The translations under genes were made by a program, and so were the position numbers. 32,834 nucleotides of DNA from Trueperaceae bacterium (GTDB taxonomy: Bacteria; Deinococcota; Deinococci; Deinococcales; Trueperaceae), in assembly GCA_013697735.1 (NCBI GenBank), contig JACCWH010000230.1, forward strand, positions 1 to 32,834, read 5' to 3'. The notes under the pieces are model-generated. The model was not told the origin of the DNA. It saw only the letters and a list, made by a program, of their open reading frames with translations, and did no database searches. Below, piece by piece: positions 953 to 6,605 of the stretch. How positions within the stretch are numbered: position 1 is the first letter of the stretch; each line of letters begins with the position of its first letter.

Positions 953-2071
953 GTGCAGGTGAGACGACGGCTCCGCCGGAGCTTGGCGTTGGCAGTTCTG
1001 CCGCCCCTCGCGGCGTGCGACTTCGGGGGGCCCCAATCGGTGCTCGACCCGCAGGGGCCCATCGCGCAAGCGCAGCAAGATCTCTTCCTCTGGACGTACT
1101 ATCTCAGTTGGCCCGTCATGATCCTCGTGGTCGCGGTGATCGCCTACTCGATGTGGAAGTTCCGCGCCAAGAGCGTCGAGGACGCCAAAGCGCTGCCGCA
1201 CCAGACGCACGGGCACACCACCCTCGAGATCGCCTGGACGCTCATCCCGGTGGTGCTCGTGATCCTCGTCGCGGTGCCGACGGTGCGGACGCTCTTCGCG
1301 ACCGAGTCCACCATCGCCGCCTCGCAGTACACCGACGACGACGTCGTGATCCGCGCGACGGGGTATCAGTGGTGGTTCAAATTCGACTACGGTGACGGTG
1401 TGGTCACCTCCAGCGAGATGCACATCCCGGTCGGTCGGCGCGTGATCGTGGAGCTCGACGCGGCCGACGTCCTGCACTCCTTCTGGGTCCCGAACCTCGC
1501 CGGGAAGCGCGACATGATCCCGAACCAGGCGAATCAGGTCTGGTTCTCTGCCGACCGTCCCGGCGTCTTCTACGGACAGTGTGCCGAGCTCTGCCTCGGA
1601 GCGCACGCGTACATGCGCTTCCGCGTGATCGCCTCGGAGGAAGAGGACTATCGAGCGTGGCTCGCATCCTTCCGCGACGCCGGAGCGACGGTACAGACCG
1701 TGCAGGCCGACCCGCAGATCGAGCGTGGCCGGCAGCTCGTGGCGCAGAAGGGCTGCATCGCGTGCCACACCATCGACGGCTACTACGCCGACGGCACGCC
1801 GGTGGGCGGCTCGGAGTTCCCGAACCTGACGAACTTCGGCCTGCGGCTCACGGTCGCCACGTCGATGCTCGACGCGACGCCCGAGAACGTCGCTCGCTGG
1901 ATCCGCTACCCGGACGCCGTCAAGCCGGGGAACCGCATGCCCACGCTCTGGACCGGCGACGACCCGAACGCCGAGGAAGAGGTCGCGGCGATCACCGCCT
2001 ACCTCCTCAGCCTCGGACGCGACTCGGGCGCGGCCACGGCGACCCTGGGGGAGACTCATGGCAATCGGTAA
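953..2071 (+). CDS. coxB: Cytochrome c oxidase subunit II with fused cytochrome c domain (caa3 type)
   Basis: 372 residues. Subunit II accepts electrons at the CuA centre and passes them to subunit I. The N-terminus is basic and then hydrophobic, with a lipobox LAAC ending at Cys22, so it is probably a lipoprotein. Two membrane helices follow at about 52-68 and 92-110. The CuA ligands are His175 and the C-x3-C-x3-H-x2-M cluster Cys210, Cys214, His218 and Met221. A C-terminal cytochrome c domain follows, with CIACH (Cys268, Cys271, His272) and Met329 as likely sixth heme ligand. This fusion is the signature of caa3 oxidases. The GTG start is preceded by a purine-rich GGAGGAGGG Shine-Dalgarno. 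The 3' end overlaps coxA by 14 bases, suggesting translational coupling. Confidence 0.96.
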   Translation: MQVRRRLRRSLALAVLPPLAACDFGGPQSVLDPQGPIAQAQQDLFLWTYYLSWPVMILVVAVIAYSMWKFRAKSVEDAKALPHQTHGHTTLEIAWTLIPVVLVILVAVPTVRTLFATESTIAASQYTDDDVVIRATGYQWWFKFDYGDGVVTSSEMHIPVGRRVIVELDAADVLHSFWVPNLAGKRDMIPNQANQVWFSADRPGVFYGQCAELCLGAHAYMRFRVIASEEEDYRAWLASFRDAGATVQTVQADPQIERGRQLVAQKGCIACHTIDGYYADGTPVGGSEFPNLTNFGLRLTVATSMLDATPENVARWIRYPDAVKPGNRMPTLWTGDDPNAEEEVAAITAYLLSLGRDSGAATATLGETHGNR

Positions 2072-3995
2072 GGTCGGCGGTGCCGACTACGAACCGCACG
2101 GTGCGGGCGGCGATGCGCTGCTTCAGCGGCCGGCGGGGTACGCCGGCATCGCCAGCTGGCTGACCACCGTCGACCACAAGCGCCTCGGCATCCTCTACAT
2201 CCTGACGAGCTTCATGTTCATGGGCTTCGCCAGCATCGAGGCGTTCCTCATCCGGCTGCAACTGCTCTCGCCGAACAACACGCTCCTCAGCCCCGACGTC
2301 TACAACCAGATGTTCACGATGCACGGCGTCACGATGGTCTTCCTCGCCATCATGCCGCTCGGCATCGGTTTCGCAAACTACATGGTCCCGCTGCAGATCG
2401 GCGCGCGCGACCTGGCGTTCCCGCGCCTCAACGCGTTTGGGTACTGGGCGTATCTGGCGGGCGGACTCTTCCTCTACACGAGCTTCTTCCTCGGCGGCGC
2501 GCCCGACGTCGGCTGGTTCGCCTACGCGCCGCTCACGTCGCTCTCGAACAATCCCGGCCTCGGTACTGATTTCTACATGATCGGCCTCTTCGTCGGCGGG
2601 ATCGGCACGCTCGTGACCGCCATGAACCTGATCGTGACCATCGTCAACATGCGCGCGCCGGGCATGACGATGATGCGCGTACCGGTCTTCACGTGGCTGA
2701 TGCTCGTCACGAGCTTCCTGATCATCTTCGCCTTCCCGCCCCTCACGATCGCGCTCTTCCAGGTGATCATGGACCGCTCCTTCGGCACGCTCTTCTACGT
2801 ACCGGAAGCGGGCGCGATGCCGATCCTCTGGCAGCACCTCTTCTGGATCTTCGGGCACCCGGAGGTCTACATCATCATCCTGCCGGCCTTCGGCGTGATC
2901 TCCGAGATCATCCCGACGTTCTCGCGCAAGCCGCTCTTCGGCTACCCGGTCATCATCCTCTCGGGGATCTTCATCGGCTTCATGGGCTTCGCGGTCTGGA
3001 CGCACCACATGTTCACCACCGGCCTCGGACCGGTCGTGAACACCGCCTTCGCGCTCACGAGCTTCGTGATCGGCATCCCCACGGGCGTGAAGGTCTTCAA
3101 CTGGCTCGGGACGATGTGGGGCGGCAAGATCGTCTTCACCACGTCGATGCTCTACGCCGTCGCCTTCCTGGTCACGTTCACGCTCGGGGGCGTCACCGGG
3201 ATCATGCTCGCCGTACCCCCCTTCGACGCGCAGGCGCAGGACTCGTACTTCGTGGTCGCGCACTTCCACTTCGTGATGGGGGGCGGAGCGCTCCTGTCGT
3301 TCTTCGCGGCGCTCTTCTACTGGTTCCCGAAGATGACGGGCCGCATGATCTCGGAGCGACTCGGCAAGATCTCGTTCTGGCTGCTCGTGCCCGGCTTCTA
3401 CGTGATCTTCTTCCCACAGCACTTCCTCGGACTCATGGGGATGCCACGCCGGACGCAGACCTACGTCGAAGGGATCGGGCTCGAGATCTGGAATCAGGTC
3501 TCGACGTTCGGGACCTTCATCATGGGCGCCGGCATGCTGCTCCTCGCTTTCGCGGTCCTTTCGGCGTTCCGAAACGGTCGACCCGCCGGCAACGATCCTT
3601 GGGACGGCCGCACGCTCGAGTGGTCGACCACCTCGCCGCCGCCGTACTACGACTTCGACCGCCAGCCCGTCGTGAACGACCGCGACGCGCACTGGGTGCA
3701 GAAGTACCCGGAGAGCGTGCACGGCGAGCGCGTGCCCGAATCGGCGTCGCTCCCGTACGACGCCGGCGGCATCCACATCCCGGGAGCGAGTTGGTACCCC
3801 TTCCTCGCAGCGGTCGCCATGCTGCCCATGAGCTACGGTCTGCTCTACAACAACTGGTGGGTGCTCGGGATCTCGCTCCTCGGAATCGTGCTGGCGACGT
3901 ACGGCTGGGCGCTCGAGGGCGTCGGCGGGAAGCACATCCACATCGACCACGGTGGCGCCGACCACGGCCGACACCGCGAGGAGACGGACGCGTGA
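2058..3995 (+). CDS. coxA: Cytochrome c oxidase subunit I
   Basis: 645 residues, a polytopic heme-copper oxidase catalytic subunit that reduces O2 and pumps protons. Visible ligands are His89 (TMHG) and His404 for low-spin heme a, His402 for heme a3, and His267, His316 and His317 for CuB. Tyr271 is the tyrosine that crosslinks to the CuB histidine in this family. GHPEVY carries Glu269, which marks the A1 subtype with the D-channel glutamate; Lys345 in PTGVKVFNW is the K-channel lysine. The C-terminus has two extra helices at about 590-630, as in other long subunit I proteins, before a histidine-rich tail. It overlaps coxB by 14 bases and coxC by 4 (GTGA). All key residues are present. Confidence 0.98.
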   Translation: MAIGKVGGADYEPHGAGGDALLQRPAGYAGIASWLTTVDHKRLGILYILTSFMFMGFASIEAFLIRLQLLSPNNTLLSPDVYNQMFTMHGVTMVFLAIMPLGIGFANYMVPLQIGARDLAFPRLNAFGYWAYLAGGLFLYTSFFLGGAPDVGWFAYAPLTSLSNNPGLGTDFYMIGLFVGGIGTLVTAMNLIVTIVNMRAPGMTMMRVPVFTWLMLVTSFLIIFAFPPLTIALFQVIMDRSFGTLFYVPEAGAMPILWQHLFWIFGHPEVYIIILPAFGVISEIIPTFSRKPLFGYPVIILSGIFIGFMGFAVWTHHMFTTGLGPVVNTAFALTSFVIGIPTGVKVFNWLGTMWGGKIVFTTSMLYAVAFLVTFTLGGVTGIMLAVPPFDAQAQDSYFVVAHFHFVMGGGALLSFFAALFYWFPKMTGRMISERLGKISFWLLVPGFYVIFFPQHFLGLMGMPRRTQTYVEGIGLEIWNQVSTFGTFIMGAGMLLLAFAVLSAFRNGRPAGNDPWDGRTLEWSTTSPPPYYDFDRQPVVNDRDAHWVQKYPESVHGERVPESASLPYDAGGIHIPGASWYPFLAAVAMLPMSYGLLYNNWWVLGISLLGIVLATYGWALEGVGGKHIHIDHGGADHGRHREETDA

Positions 3996-4609
3996 GCGAG
4001 ACCATCGCACCGACCGCGACGCACGGTGCCGCCGTGCTCTCAGCCCGGAGCACGAAGCTCCCCGACGTGAAGCTCATGATGTGGGTCTTCCTGGCGTCGG
4101 ACTGCATGTTCTTCGGCACCCTCATCGGGACCTACCTCGTCTATAACGGCCGGAGCCTCGTCGGTCCCGGCCCGCTCGACGTGCTCGACATCCCGCTCAC
4201 TACCGTGAGCACGTTCGTGCTGCTGATGTCGTCGTTCCTGATGGTGCTGGCGCTGCACTCACTCCGCCAGAACGACATCTCGAAGTTCCGCCTCTGGACC
4301 TTCGGCGTGGCGTTCTTCGGCGCCATCTTCCTGGGCTTCCAGATCTACGAGTTCCGGCACTTCGTCGAGCTCGGGATGACGTTGCAGGGCAACCTCTTCG
4401 GCACCACCTTCTACGTCCTCACGGGCACCCACGGCGTTCACGTCACCATCGGGGTTCTGTGGCTGCTCTCGATCCTGGTGCACTCCTACATCCACCCCTG
4501 GACCAGCAAGGACGAGGTCTACCTCGAGGTCGCCGGTCTCTATTGGCACTTCGTCGACATCGTCTGGATCGTGATCTTCACGGTCGTCTACCTGGTCGAG
4601 TTCGTGTGA
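3992..4609 (+). CDS. coxC: Cytochrome c oxidase subunit III
   Basis: 205 residues with about five membrane helices, the short form of subunit III. It starts MSETIAPTAT and ends with the family-typical stretch YWHFVDIVWIVIFTVVYLVEF. Subunit III stabilises the oxidase and supports sustained proton uptake. I chose the GTG at 3992 because it overlaps the coxA stop as GTGA and gives the normal family length; the frame is open much further upstream, but that stretch is antisense-quality sequence inside coxA. The next gene begins 10 bases after the stop. Confidence 0.96.
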   Translation: MSETIAPTATHGAAVLSARSTKLPDVKLMMWVFLASDCMFFGTLIGTYLVYNGRSLVGPGPLDVLDIPLTTVSTFVLLMSSFLMVLALHSLRQNDISKFRLWTFGVAFFGAIFLGFQIYEFRHFVELGMTLQGNLFGTTFYVLTGTHGVHVTIGVLWLLSILVHSYIHPWTSKDEVYLEVAGLYWHFVDIVWIVIFTVVYLVEFV

Positions 4610-4619
4610 GGCGAAACTG

Positions 4620-5711
4620 ATGGCAGACGGCACGCACAAAGGCCCCGGCCTCTACATCGTGATCGCCCTCATCCTGGGCGTCATCACCTACATCGAGTAC
4701 TACATCGTGGAGTTCCCCCCCGTCTGGCTCAGTGCGTCCTGGGTCCTCTTCTGGCTGGTCACACTCTCCCTCGCGAAGTTCTGGATGGTCATCTGGTTCT
4801 TCATGCACCTCCGCGACGACGACAAGCTCTACACCGGCTTCTTCGCATCCGGAATGGTGATCGCAATGGGCACGTTCGTGGCGCTCGCGGCCATGTTCCT
4901 GCTGCCGCGCGCCGTCGCTCCGGTCGTCGCCGCGCAGGAGTCGCCGGCGATCGTCACGGACCACGGCGACCCGTATGCCGACCACCCCGACCCGGTGCCA
5001 CAGGAGCTGCGAGACCTCATCGCCAGCGACGGGATGTCTCGTTCCCTCGCCCGCCGCTCCGACGCGCCGCGCCCCAAGGACCAGACGCTTCGCATCACGC
5101 CGCCCCAGGCGCCCGACGACACCTTCACCCTCCGCCTCGACGACGAGGAGCTCGACGAGCTCGACCTCGGCGACGCCGAGGTGGCGAGCGATCCCGAGGC
5201 CGACGCCGGTGCGGCAGCGGTGCCGTCCCCCGAGGAGACCGAGGCAGAGGCGCCCACGCTGGCGGCAGCGCCCGACGAGTCGGACGACGCCGACGCACGC
5301 GATCCGACGTTCGATCGCGAACTCGGTGCGCAGGTCTACGCTGCGAACTGCAGCGGCTGCCACCAGGCGAACGGCCGCGGCATCCCGGGCGCATTCCCGC
5401 CGGTCGCCGGTCACGGCGCCGAGCTGTACGCCCTGGACGGGGGCCGCGCCTACCTCGTGGACGTATTGCTCTACGGCCTCCAGGGCGCCATCGAGGTCAA
5501 CGACCAGGCCTACAACGGCATGATGCCTGCGTGGCCCCACCTCTCCGACGATCAGATCGCCGCCGTGCTGAACCACATCGTCGCCGGCTGGGCCGACGAG
5601 GACGAACCCGCCGACTTCGACGCCTACCGCGCCGACGAGATCGCCGCCGAACGCGGTAGGGGGCTCTCCCCAGCAGACGTCCACGCGCTTCGCGCGACGC
5701 TGCGCGACTAG
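4620..5711 (+). CDS. Cytochrome oxidase subunit IV-like membrane domain fused to cytochrome c
   Basis: 363 residues in three parts. Residues 1-98 form three membrane helices (about 11-29, 38-62, 73-96), typical of the small prokaryotic subunit IV (CoxD/CtaF-like). Residues about 100-228 are a disordered, strongly acidic Asp/Glu/Ala linker. Residues about 229-340 are a class I cytochrome c with CSGCH (Cys244, Cys247, His248) and Met302 in MMPAW as probable axial ligand. With the N-terminus inside, three helices put the heme domain outside the membrane, where it belongs. Subunit IV proteins are normally about 100 residues, so the cytochrome extension is unusual, and subunit II of the same operon already carries one. 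It probably supplies a second heme c docking or relay site; this is inference. Confidence 0.9.
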   Translation: MADGTHKGPGLYIVIALILGVITYIEYYIVEFPPVWLSASWVLFWLVTLSLAKFWMVIWFFMHLRDDDKLYTGFFASGMVIAMGTFVALAAMFLLPRAVAPVVAAQESPAIVTDHGDPYADHPDPVPQELRDLIASDGMSRSLARRSDAPRPKDQTLRITPPQAPDDTFTLRLDDEELDELDLGDAEVASDPEADAGAAAVPSPEETEAEAPTLAAAPDESDDADARDPTFDRELGAQVYAANCSGCHQANGRGIPGAFPPVAGHGAELYALDGGRAYLVDVLLYGLQGAIEVNDQAYNGMMPAWPHLSDDQIAAVLNHIVAGWADEDEPADFDAYRADEIAAERGRGLSPADVHALRATLRD

Positions 5712-5726
5712 GCGAGGAGACACCCC

Positions 5727-6605
5727 GTGCCCCCAGCCGAGATCTACGTGAACTGGCAGCTCGATCCGATCTTGATCGGCGGGCTGCTGGCGCTCGGCGT
5801 CGCCTACGCGCTGGCGACCGGTCCCCTGCGCGAACGGATCGCTCCCGGTCGCGCCTTCGAGCCGGGGCGGGCGAGCATGTTCTACGTCGCGCTCGTGACC
5901 TTCTTCCTGGTCGAGGGGTCGCCGCTGCACGATCTCGCCGAGCGCTACCTGCTCTCGGCCCACATGCTCCAGCACCTGCTGCTGTCGTACGTGGTGGCGC
6001 GCTTGATGCTCGTGGGCGTTCCGGCCTGGCTCTGGCGCGCGCTGCTGCTGAACCGGGCCGTCGCGCCGATCGCGAAGGTGATGCTCCGCCCGACGATGGC
6101 GTTCATCACCTTCGGCCTCTTCTTCGCCGTCTGGCACGTTCCCGCGGTCTACGAAGGGGCACTCGCGAACCCGACGCTGCACCACATCGAGCACGTCCTC
6201 TTCCTGGTTGCAGCTCTGATCCTGTGGTGGCCGATCCTGAGCCCCCTCGCCGAGCTGCCGAAGGCGCCGCCACTCGTGCAGCTCGTCTACCTCTTCACCA
6301 TCCCGATCGCGCAGTTGCCGGTCTTCGCCGCCATCACCTTCTCCCCCGACGTCGTCTACGCCACCTACGCGAACGCACCGCAGATCGTGGGCTGGCTCAC
6401 GCCGCTCTCGGATCAGGCCCTCGCCGGCGCGATCATGAAGGTGTTCGGGCTCGTCTTCTTCGGAGTCCCGTTCGCACGGATCTTCTTCGAGTGGTATGCG
6501 CGTGAGACGCGGCGGAACATCACGCAGCGCGACATGCGTCGTCGAAGCGGACCGCCCGATGGGCACGACGGCGTTACGACGCCGGTCGCGGTGGAGGCGC
6601 GATGA
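5727..6605 (+). CDS. ctaG: Cytochrome c oxidase assembly factor, CtaG (caa3_CtaG) family
   Basis: 292 residues with about seven membrane helices. Conserved histidines of the family are visible in SAHMLQH (His78, His82), in FAVWHVP and in LHHIEHVLF. Proteins of this type are needed for assembly of caa3 oxidase in Bacillus and are thought to take part in CuB delivery, although they are unrelated to the Cox11 protein that shares the CtaG name. The GTG start has GAGGAGA upstream and lies 15 bases after the previous stop. The end overlaps the next gene by 4 bases (ATGA). Its place directly after the structural cox genes supports the call. Confidence 0.92.
   Translation: MPPAEIYVNWQLDPILIGGLLALGVAYALATGPLRERIAPGRAFEPGRASMFYVALVTFFLVEGSPLHDLAERYLLSAHMLQHLLLSYVVARLMLVGVPAWLWRALLLNRAVAPIAKVMLRPTMAFITFGLFFAVWHVPAVYEGALANPTLHHIEHVLFLVAALILWWPILSPLAELPKAPPLVQLVYLFTIPIAQLPVFAAITFSPDVVYATYANAPQIVGWLTPLSDQALAGAIMKVFGLVFFGVPFARIFFEWYARETRRNITQRDMRRRSGPPDGHDGVTTPVAVEAR

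Follow-up and report, generated by a model that had tools for sequence, protein, structure and literature searches.

The window, by which we mean the whole 32,834-nucleotide stretch of Trueperaceae DNA analyzed here, carries a cytochrome oxidase operon with the gene order coxB-coxA-coxC-[fusion gene]-ctaG. The genes of this operon and the segments of the fusion gene are as follows:

953..2071, + strand: CoxB, with a lipoprotein-like N-terminus, a CuA site and its own cytochrome c domain of the Thermus caa3 subunit II type
2058..3995, + strand: CoxA, oxidase subunit I, with a GHPEVY motif (read as A1 type)
3995..4609, + strand: CoxC, subunit III (putative start codon)
4620..5711, + strand: COX4_pro::cytochrome c552 fusion gene, subunit IV with tethered c552, 363 aa
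4644..4901, + strand: subunit IV membrane domain, three helices, aa 9-94 (Pfam COX4_pro aa 14-83 and model helices)
5010..5114, + strand: conserved net-positive linker motif, aa 131-165, consensus LIE.DG.SR..A..aD.PRPkD.sl.i.pP.A
5115..5309, + strand: variable acidic linker, aa 166-230, 24 D/E, net charge -22
5310..5708, + strand: cytochrome c552 domain, aa 231-363, with CSGCH at aa 244-248, distal Met302 and a Thermus-type C-terminal extension
5727..6605, + strand: CtaG, caa3 assembly factor

CoxB contains the CuA motif CAELCLGAHAYM, the heme motif CIACH and a Cytochrom_C domain. With these two motifs on subunit II and GHPEVY, which we take to be the A1-type motif, on subunit I, the operon has the features of a caa3-type A1 oxidase; the Thermus caa3 enzyme is, in contrast, of the A2 type. 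The heme domain of CoxB is closest to 2yev, the Thermus caa3 subunit II, and is unlike the fused c552. Operon order is kept across the Trueperaceae, and CuA and a single heme c motif were present in each CoxB for which the full sequence was read. Sequence, gene order and family-wide conservation thus bear out what an earlier note on this DNA had proposed, namely, that subunit II carries its own cytochrome c and that one oxidase operon, here of the A1 type, encodes two subunits with a heme c domain each. The genome of the window (G000) encodes a second A-type oxidase (L178, G000:C62, 1649-5869), whose CoxB has CuA and heme c. Its coxB and coxA are separated by a frame (2833-3309) for a small, separate cytochrome c with a hydrophobic N-terminal helix, and the locus showed no subunit IV fusion.

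The fusion gene is a single open reading frame with an ATG start. On the same chain, Pfam detects COX4_pro at aa 14-83 (E = 4.4e-8, 33.8 bits versus a cut-off of 28.9) and Cytochrom_C at aa 235-321 (E = 8.6e-13, over the cut-off), and the fusion proteins of four further genomes (G014, G008, G017 and G001) also exceed the cut-off for COX4_pro (PF03626). With the NCBIfam model TIGR02229 (caa3_sub_IV), the protein scores 14.7 bits, below the cut-off of 37.25. The COX4_pro part follows coxC in the operon and has three transmembrane helices, placed by hydropathy and AlphaFold at residues 9-31, 39-64 and 68-94; the AlphaFold model is of modest confidence (mean pLDDT of 57). We ruled out an assembly chimera, since the fusion recurs across the family, including the closed, single-contig genomes G008, G014 and G017.

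The cytochrome part could be assigned more narrowly than as a generic heme c domain, a label that we dropped on the strength of a structure-database sequence match and a fold match. A phmmer search against solved structures gave E values of about 1e-39 to 1c52, 1dt1, 1foc and 2fwl over 124 residues (about 236-359), a match that spans nearly all of Thermus thermophilus c552, including its C-terminal extension. Foldseek of the model returned 1c52 with an E value of 1.5e-8, a TM score of 0.80 by target length and 53% identity. The domain thus shows the CxxCH motif, the distal Met, the Thermus C-terminal extension and the same fold. Judged by sequence and model, the fused domain is a homologue of Thermus-type cytochrome c552, normally a soluble donor. 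Its identification with the usual soluble oxidase donor of Thermus is, in our view, what is new here. For Thermus, c552 is described as the physiological substrate of the ba3 and caa3 oxidases (PMC3561395).

An alignment of the fusion protein with 13 homologues (34 to 60% identity) shows no variation at Cys244, Cys247, His248 or Met302. Pfam, hydropathy and AlphaFold agree with the earlier note on a three-helix subunit IV and a complete cytochrome c domain, with CSGCH and distal Met302, in one protein; the latter is, moreover, a c552. The invariance of the four residues in 14 diverse sequences also bears on the idea that the cytochrome domain is an appendage for structure or assembly that contributes little to electron transfer. 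Oxidase subunit IV is itself usually noncatalytic, which would suit such a role. We nevertheless regard an appendage as very improbable, given the invariant ligands and the tandem duplication of the domain, which probably occurred more than once (see below).

Between helix 3 and the c552 domain lies a linker of 132 residues (99-230), and AlphaFold assigns a pLDDT below 50 to most of residues 95-229. The linker had been described as acidic and roughly 130 residues long; the length holds, but the acidity is not uniform. Residues 131-165 carry a net charge of +3, and only residues 166-230 are acidic. In the homologue alignment, the mean top-residue frequency of the 131-165 segment is 0.55, compared to 0.33 to 0.34 in the flanking linker. 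The sequence is compatible with a possible docking segment (aa 131-165) followed by a flexible tether. By generic scaling, a disordered chain of 132 residues has a contour length of about 47 nm and a typical end-to-end distance of about 9 nm, and the tethered c552 could therefore reach a neighboring complex.

All relatives of the fusion protein retrieved from named genomes belong to the Trueperaceae. We surveyed the phylum by a PF03626 search over 111 Deinococcota genomes, which detected the domain in 31 Trueperaceae and 11 other genomes. The frame runs on into c552 in 29 of the 31 Trueperaceae genomes, and the remaining two are consistent with this arrangement: in G023, the contig ends inside the linker and another contig begins with two c552 domains followed by ctaG, and in G018, a frame break separates the subunit IV and c552 halves, which are intact in its congener G002. 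G009 encodes the fusion and, in addition, a short COX4_pro frame that lacks a cytochrome. Where no subunit IV match was obtained, this CoxC was absent (G016, G031, G035 and G110), only a divergent CoxC of 31 to 34% identity or less was present (G010 and G015), or the contig stopped about 15 bases or less past coxC (G109 and G032).

Outside the Trueperaceae, COX4_pro frames are mostly 115 to 166 aa long. c552 was absent from the COX4_pro frame in all five non-Trueperaceae loci read with flanks, and a longer open frame of 273 aa in G097 gave no cytochrome match. Subunit IV thus looks unfused elsewhere in the Deinococcota, judging from these frames, and we rejected the fusion as a phylum-wide trait, as COX4_pro in the other families lies mostly in short frames. 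A tblastn search of plasmids with the fusion yielded c552-like matches, none of which covered 80% of it. The earlier note had called the architecture unusual and had suggested searching genomes for COX4_pro joined to cytochrome c. Across the 111 Deinococcota genomes, this search confined the fusion to the Trueperaceae, and no paper describing a subunit IV-cytochrome c fusion was found in a literature search that left out most subscription journals; "unusual" therefore stands with that phylum as its scope.

Four genomes (G001, G023, G026 and G034) have two c552 domains in tandem. A quick domain tree built from few columns pairs the two G001 copies as sisters but places the copies of G026 apart from each other, and likewise those of G034; tandem duplication has therefore probably happened more than once. 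The tree gave no clear support for a single origin of the fused domain: fused c552 domains do not form one clade, and some group with other c552 domains of their own genome. The tree needs 10 label changes to accommodate the fused domains, of which 4 or more are forced by starred branches; c552 copies may thus have been exchanged or have undergone gene conversion. Since the fused domains form no single clade, the c552 domain may be interchangeable rather than tuned to the A1 oxidase. Differently fused c552 domains of one genome or genus cluster together in G009, G010, G013 and G014/G022, a pattern also suggestive of gene conversion or exchange between copies.

Further c552 modules occur beside complex III and on another oxidase. 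In the genome of the window, actF is the last gene of an alternative complex III (ACIII) operon, and next to it is encoded a protein of 249 aa that has a hydrophobic stretch at its N-terminus and a c552 domain; we presume the act names from the order and domain content of the genes and from general knowledge. A transmembrane-anchored c552 protein directly follows actF in about 20 Trueperaceae genomes, and at one locus (L107, G009:C11, 5574-7310), the post-actF protein contains three c552 domains in tandem. No bc1 cytochrome b (PF00033) was detected in the genome of the window, which has ACIII, or in most Trueperaceae genomes, the exceptions being G013, G015 and G017. Of the 23 Trueperaceae genomes in that search, 20 have ActF; the genomes without it are G001 and G011, both incomplete, and G015, in which cytochrome b is present and the fusion absent. 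Subunit II of a ba3-type oxidase ends in a c552 domain at ten of the loci read, including those of G014 and G017 (L112, L115, L134, L137, L143, L154, L158, L159, L161 and L162).

The genome of the window also encodes a c552 that looks soluble (G000:C77), with a signal-like N-terminus and no long linker, and soluble c552-like and c550-like proteins are present in Trueperaceae genomes. At three loci (L117, L135 and L142), diheme proteins end in a c552-like domain; by resemblance, we assign them to the type of the Thermus c550 of the sulfite pathway.

We consider it probable that the fused c552 serves as a built-in shuttle, passing electrons from ACIII through c552 to the CoxB heme c, CuA and O2. 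The domain identity, the heme ligands, the operon, the conservation, the ACIII genes and the lack of detectable PF00033 are the observations behind this proposal. The protein would be the subunit IV of an A1-type caa3 oxidase with c552 fused at its periplasmic C-terminus: its membrane domain would bind the oxidase core, and the linker of about 130 residues would keep c552 mobile yet captive. The donor to c552 would be ACIII, by way of ActE, ActA or the anchored c552 whose gene directly follows actF, and the acceptor would be the CoxB heme c, from where electrons would pass to CuA, heme a and the O2 site. We infer the incorporation into the complex, the direction of electron flow, the identity of the partners and docking by the linker motif. 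Such a tethered shuttle would work irrespective of how much soluble carrier is present; the soluble-looking c552 in the same genome indicates, however, that the tether would not be the sole route.

The earlier note had offered two roles for a second heme domain. An electron relay between the two domains is plausible, and acceptance of electrons from two donors is conceivable. Its homology to the c552 that normally serves the Thermus oxidases as a soluble donor makes the second domain resemble a captive substrate more than one further generic heme. Alternatively, c552 could act as an entry port through which ACIII, soluble c552 and c550 all deliver electrons, serving mainly donor specificity. 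Soluble c552-like and c550-like candidates exist in the family, as noted above, and both Thermus c550 domains pass electrons to c552 (PMC3561395). We consider this quite unlikely as the main function, since CoxB has an entry domain with its own heme c, although sequence does not by itself tell a port from a shuttle.

In the manner of the additional heme in Neisseria gonorrhoeae CcoP, or as has been proposed for ActE, c552 could also be an electron buffer or branch point, which would exchange electrons with CoxB and mainly store them or feed other periplasmic acceptors. The extra CcoP heme is described as a branch point to nitrite reductase, and ActE as nonessential for electron transfer to aa3 (PMC8552683); tandem c552 copies, as in the four genomes above, would raise storage capacity. 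Yet no acceptor gene is linked in the operon, Thermus c552 donates to oxidases (PMC3561395), and ba3 subunit II likewise bears a fused c552 module, so that buffering or branching appears unlikely as the main role.

The proposed shuttle has partial parallels in known systems. The domain shares with Thermus thermophilus c552 (PDB 1C52) its entire length, including the C-terminal extension, at about 53% identity, but the Thermus protein is soluble and free whereas that of the Trueperaceae is tethered to oxidase subunit IV. The caa3 oxidases of Thermus (2YEV), Bacillus and Rhodothermus likewise have a CoxB with CuA and cytochrome c and a nearby CtaG. To our knowledge, however, the caa3 complexes described so far each have a single tethered heme c, while the Trueperaceae operon encodes two, and three in four relatives.

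Cytochrome cy of Rhodobacter is likewise a cytochrome c on a long linker that operates between complex III and oxidase (PMC8361435). It is a separate protein with its own anchor, whereas in the Trueperaceae an oxidase subunit provides the anchor for a Thermus-type c552 module. The CcoP-cy fusion (PDB 6XKX) and the extra heme of N. gonorrhoeae CcoP also place a carrier-like cytochrome c on an oxidase subunit (PMC8552683), but these are cbb3 oxidases, in which the subunit already has hemes; 6XKX comes from an engineered supercomplex (PMC7876108). In the actinobacterial QcrC diheme and the mobile heme domain of Flavobacterium ActA, a tethered heme c likewise replaces the diffusing carrier between complexes III and IV, with the difference that those tethers sit on complex III.

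It has long been debated whether cytochrome c diffuses freely or is channelled between complexes III and IV, and the Trueperaceae represent a natural experiment in this respect, with the donor tied to the oxidase, sometimes in two copies, and found also beside complex III and on a second oxidase. A cultured member of the family is apparently available, so that heme count, linker length and soluble-carrier dependence are directly measurable. We tentatively suggest, at less than even likelihood, that the Trueperaceae chain is largely leashed, with c552 tethered to complex III, to subunit IV of the A1 oxidase and, in several genomes, to subunit II of the ba3 oxidase. If so, electrons would move hand to hand between tethered c552 domains, and no soluble carrier would be needed.
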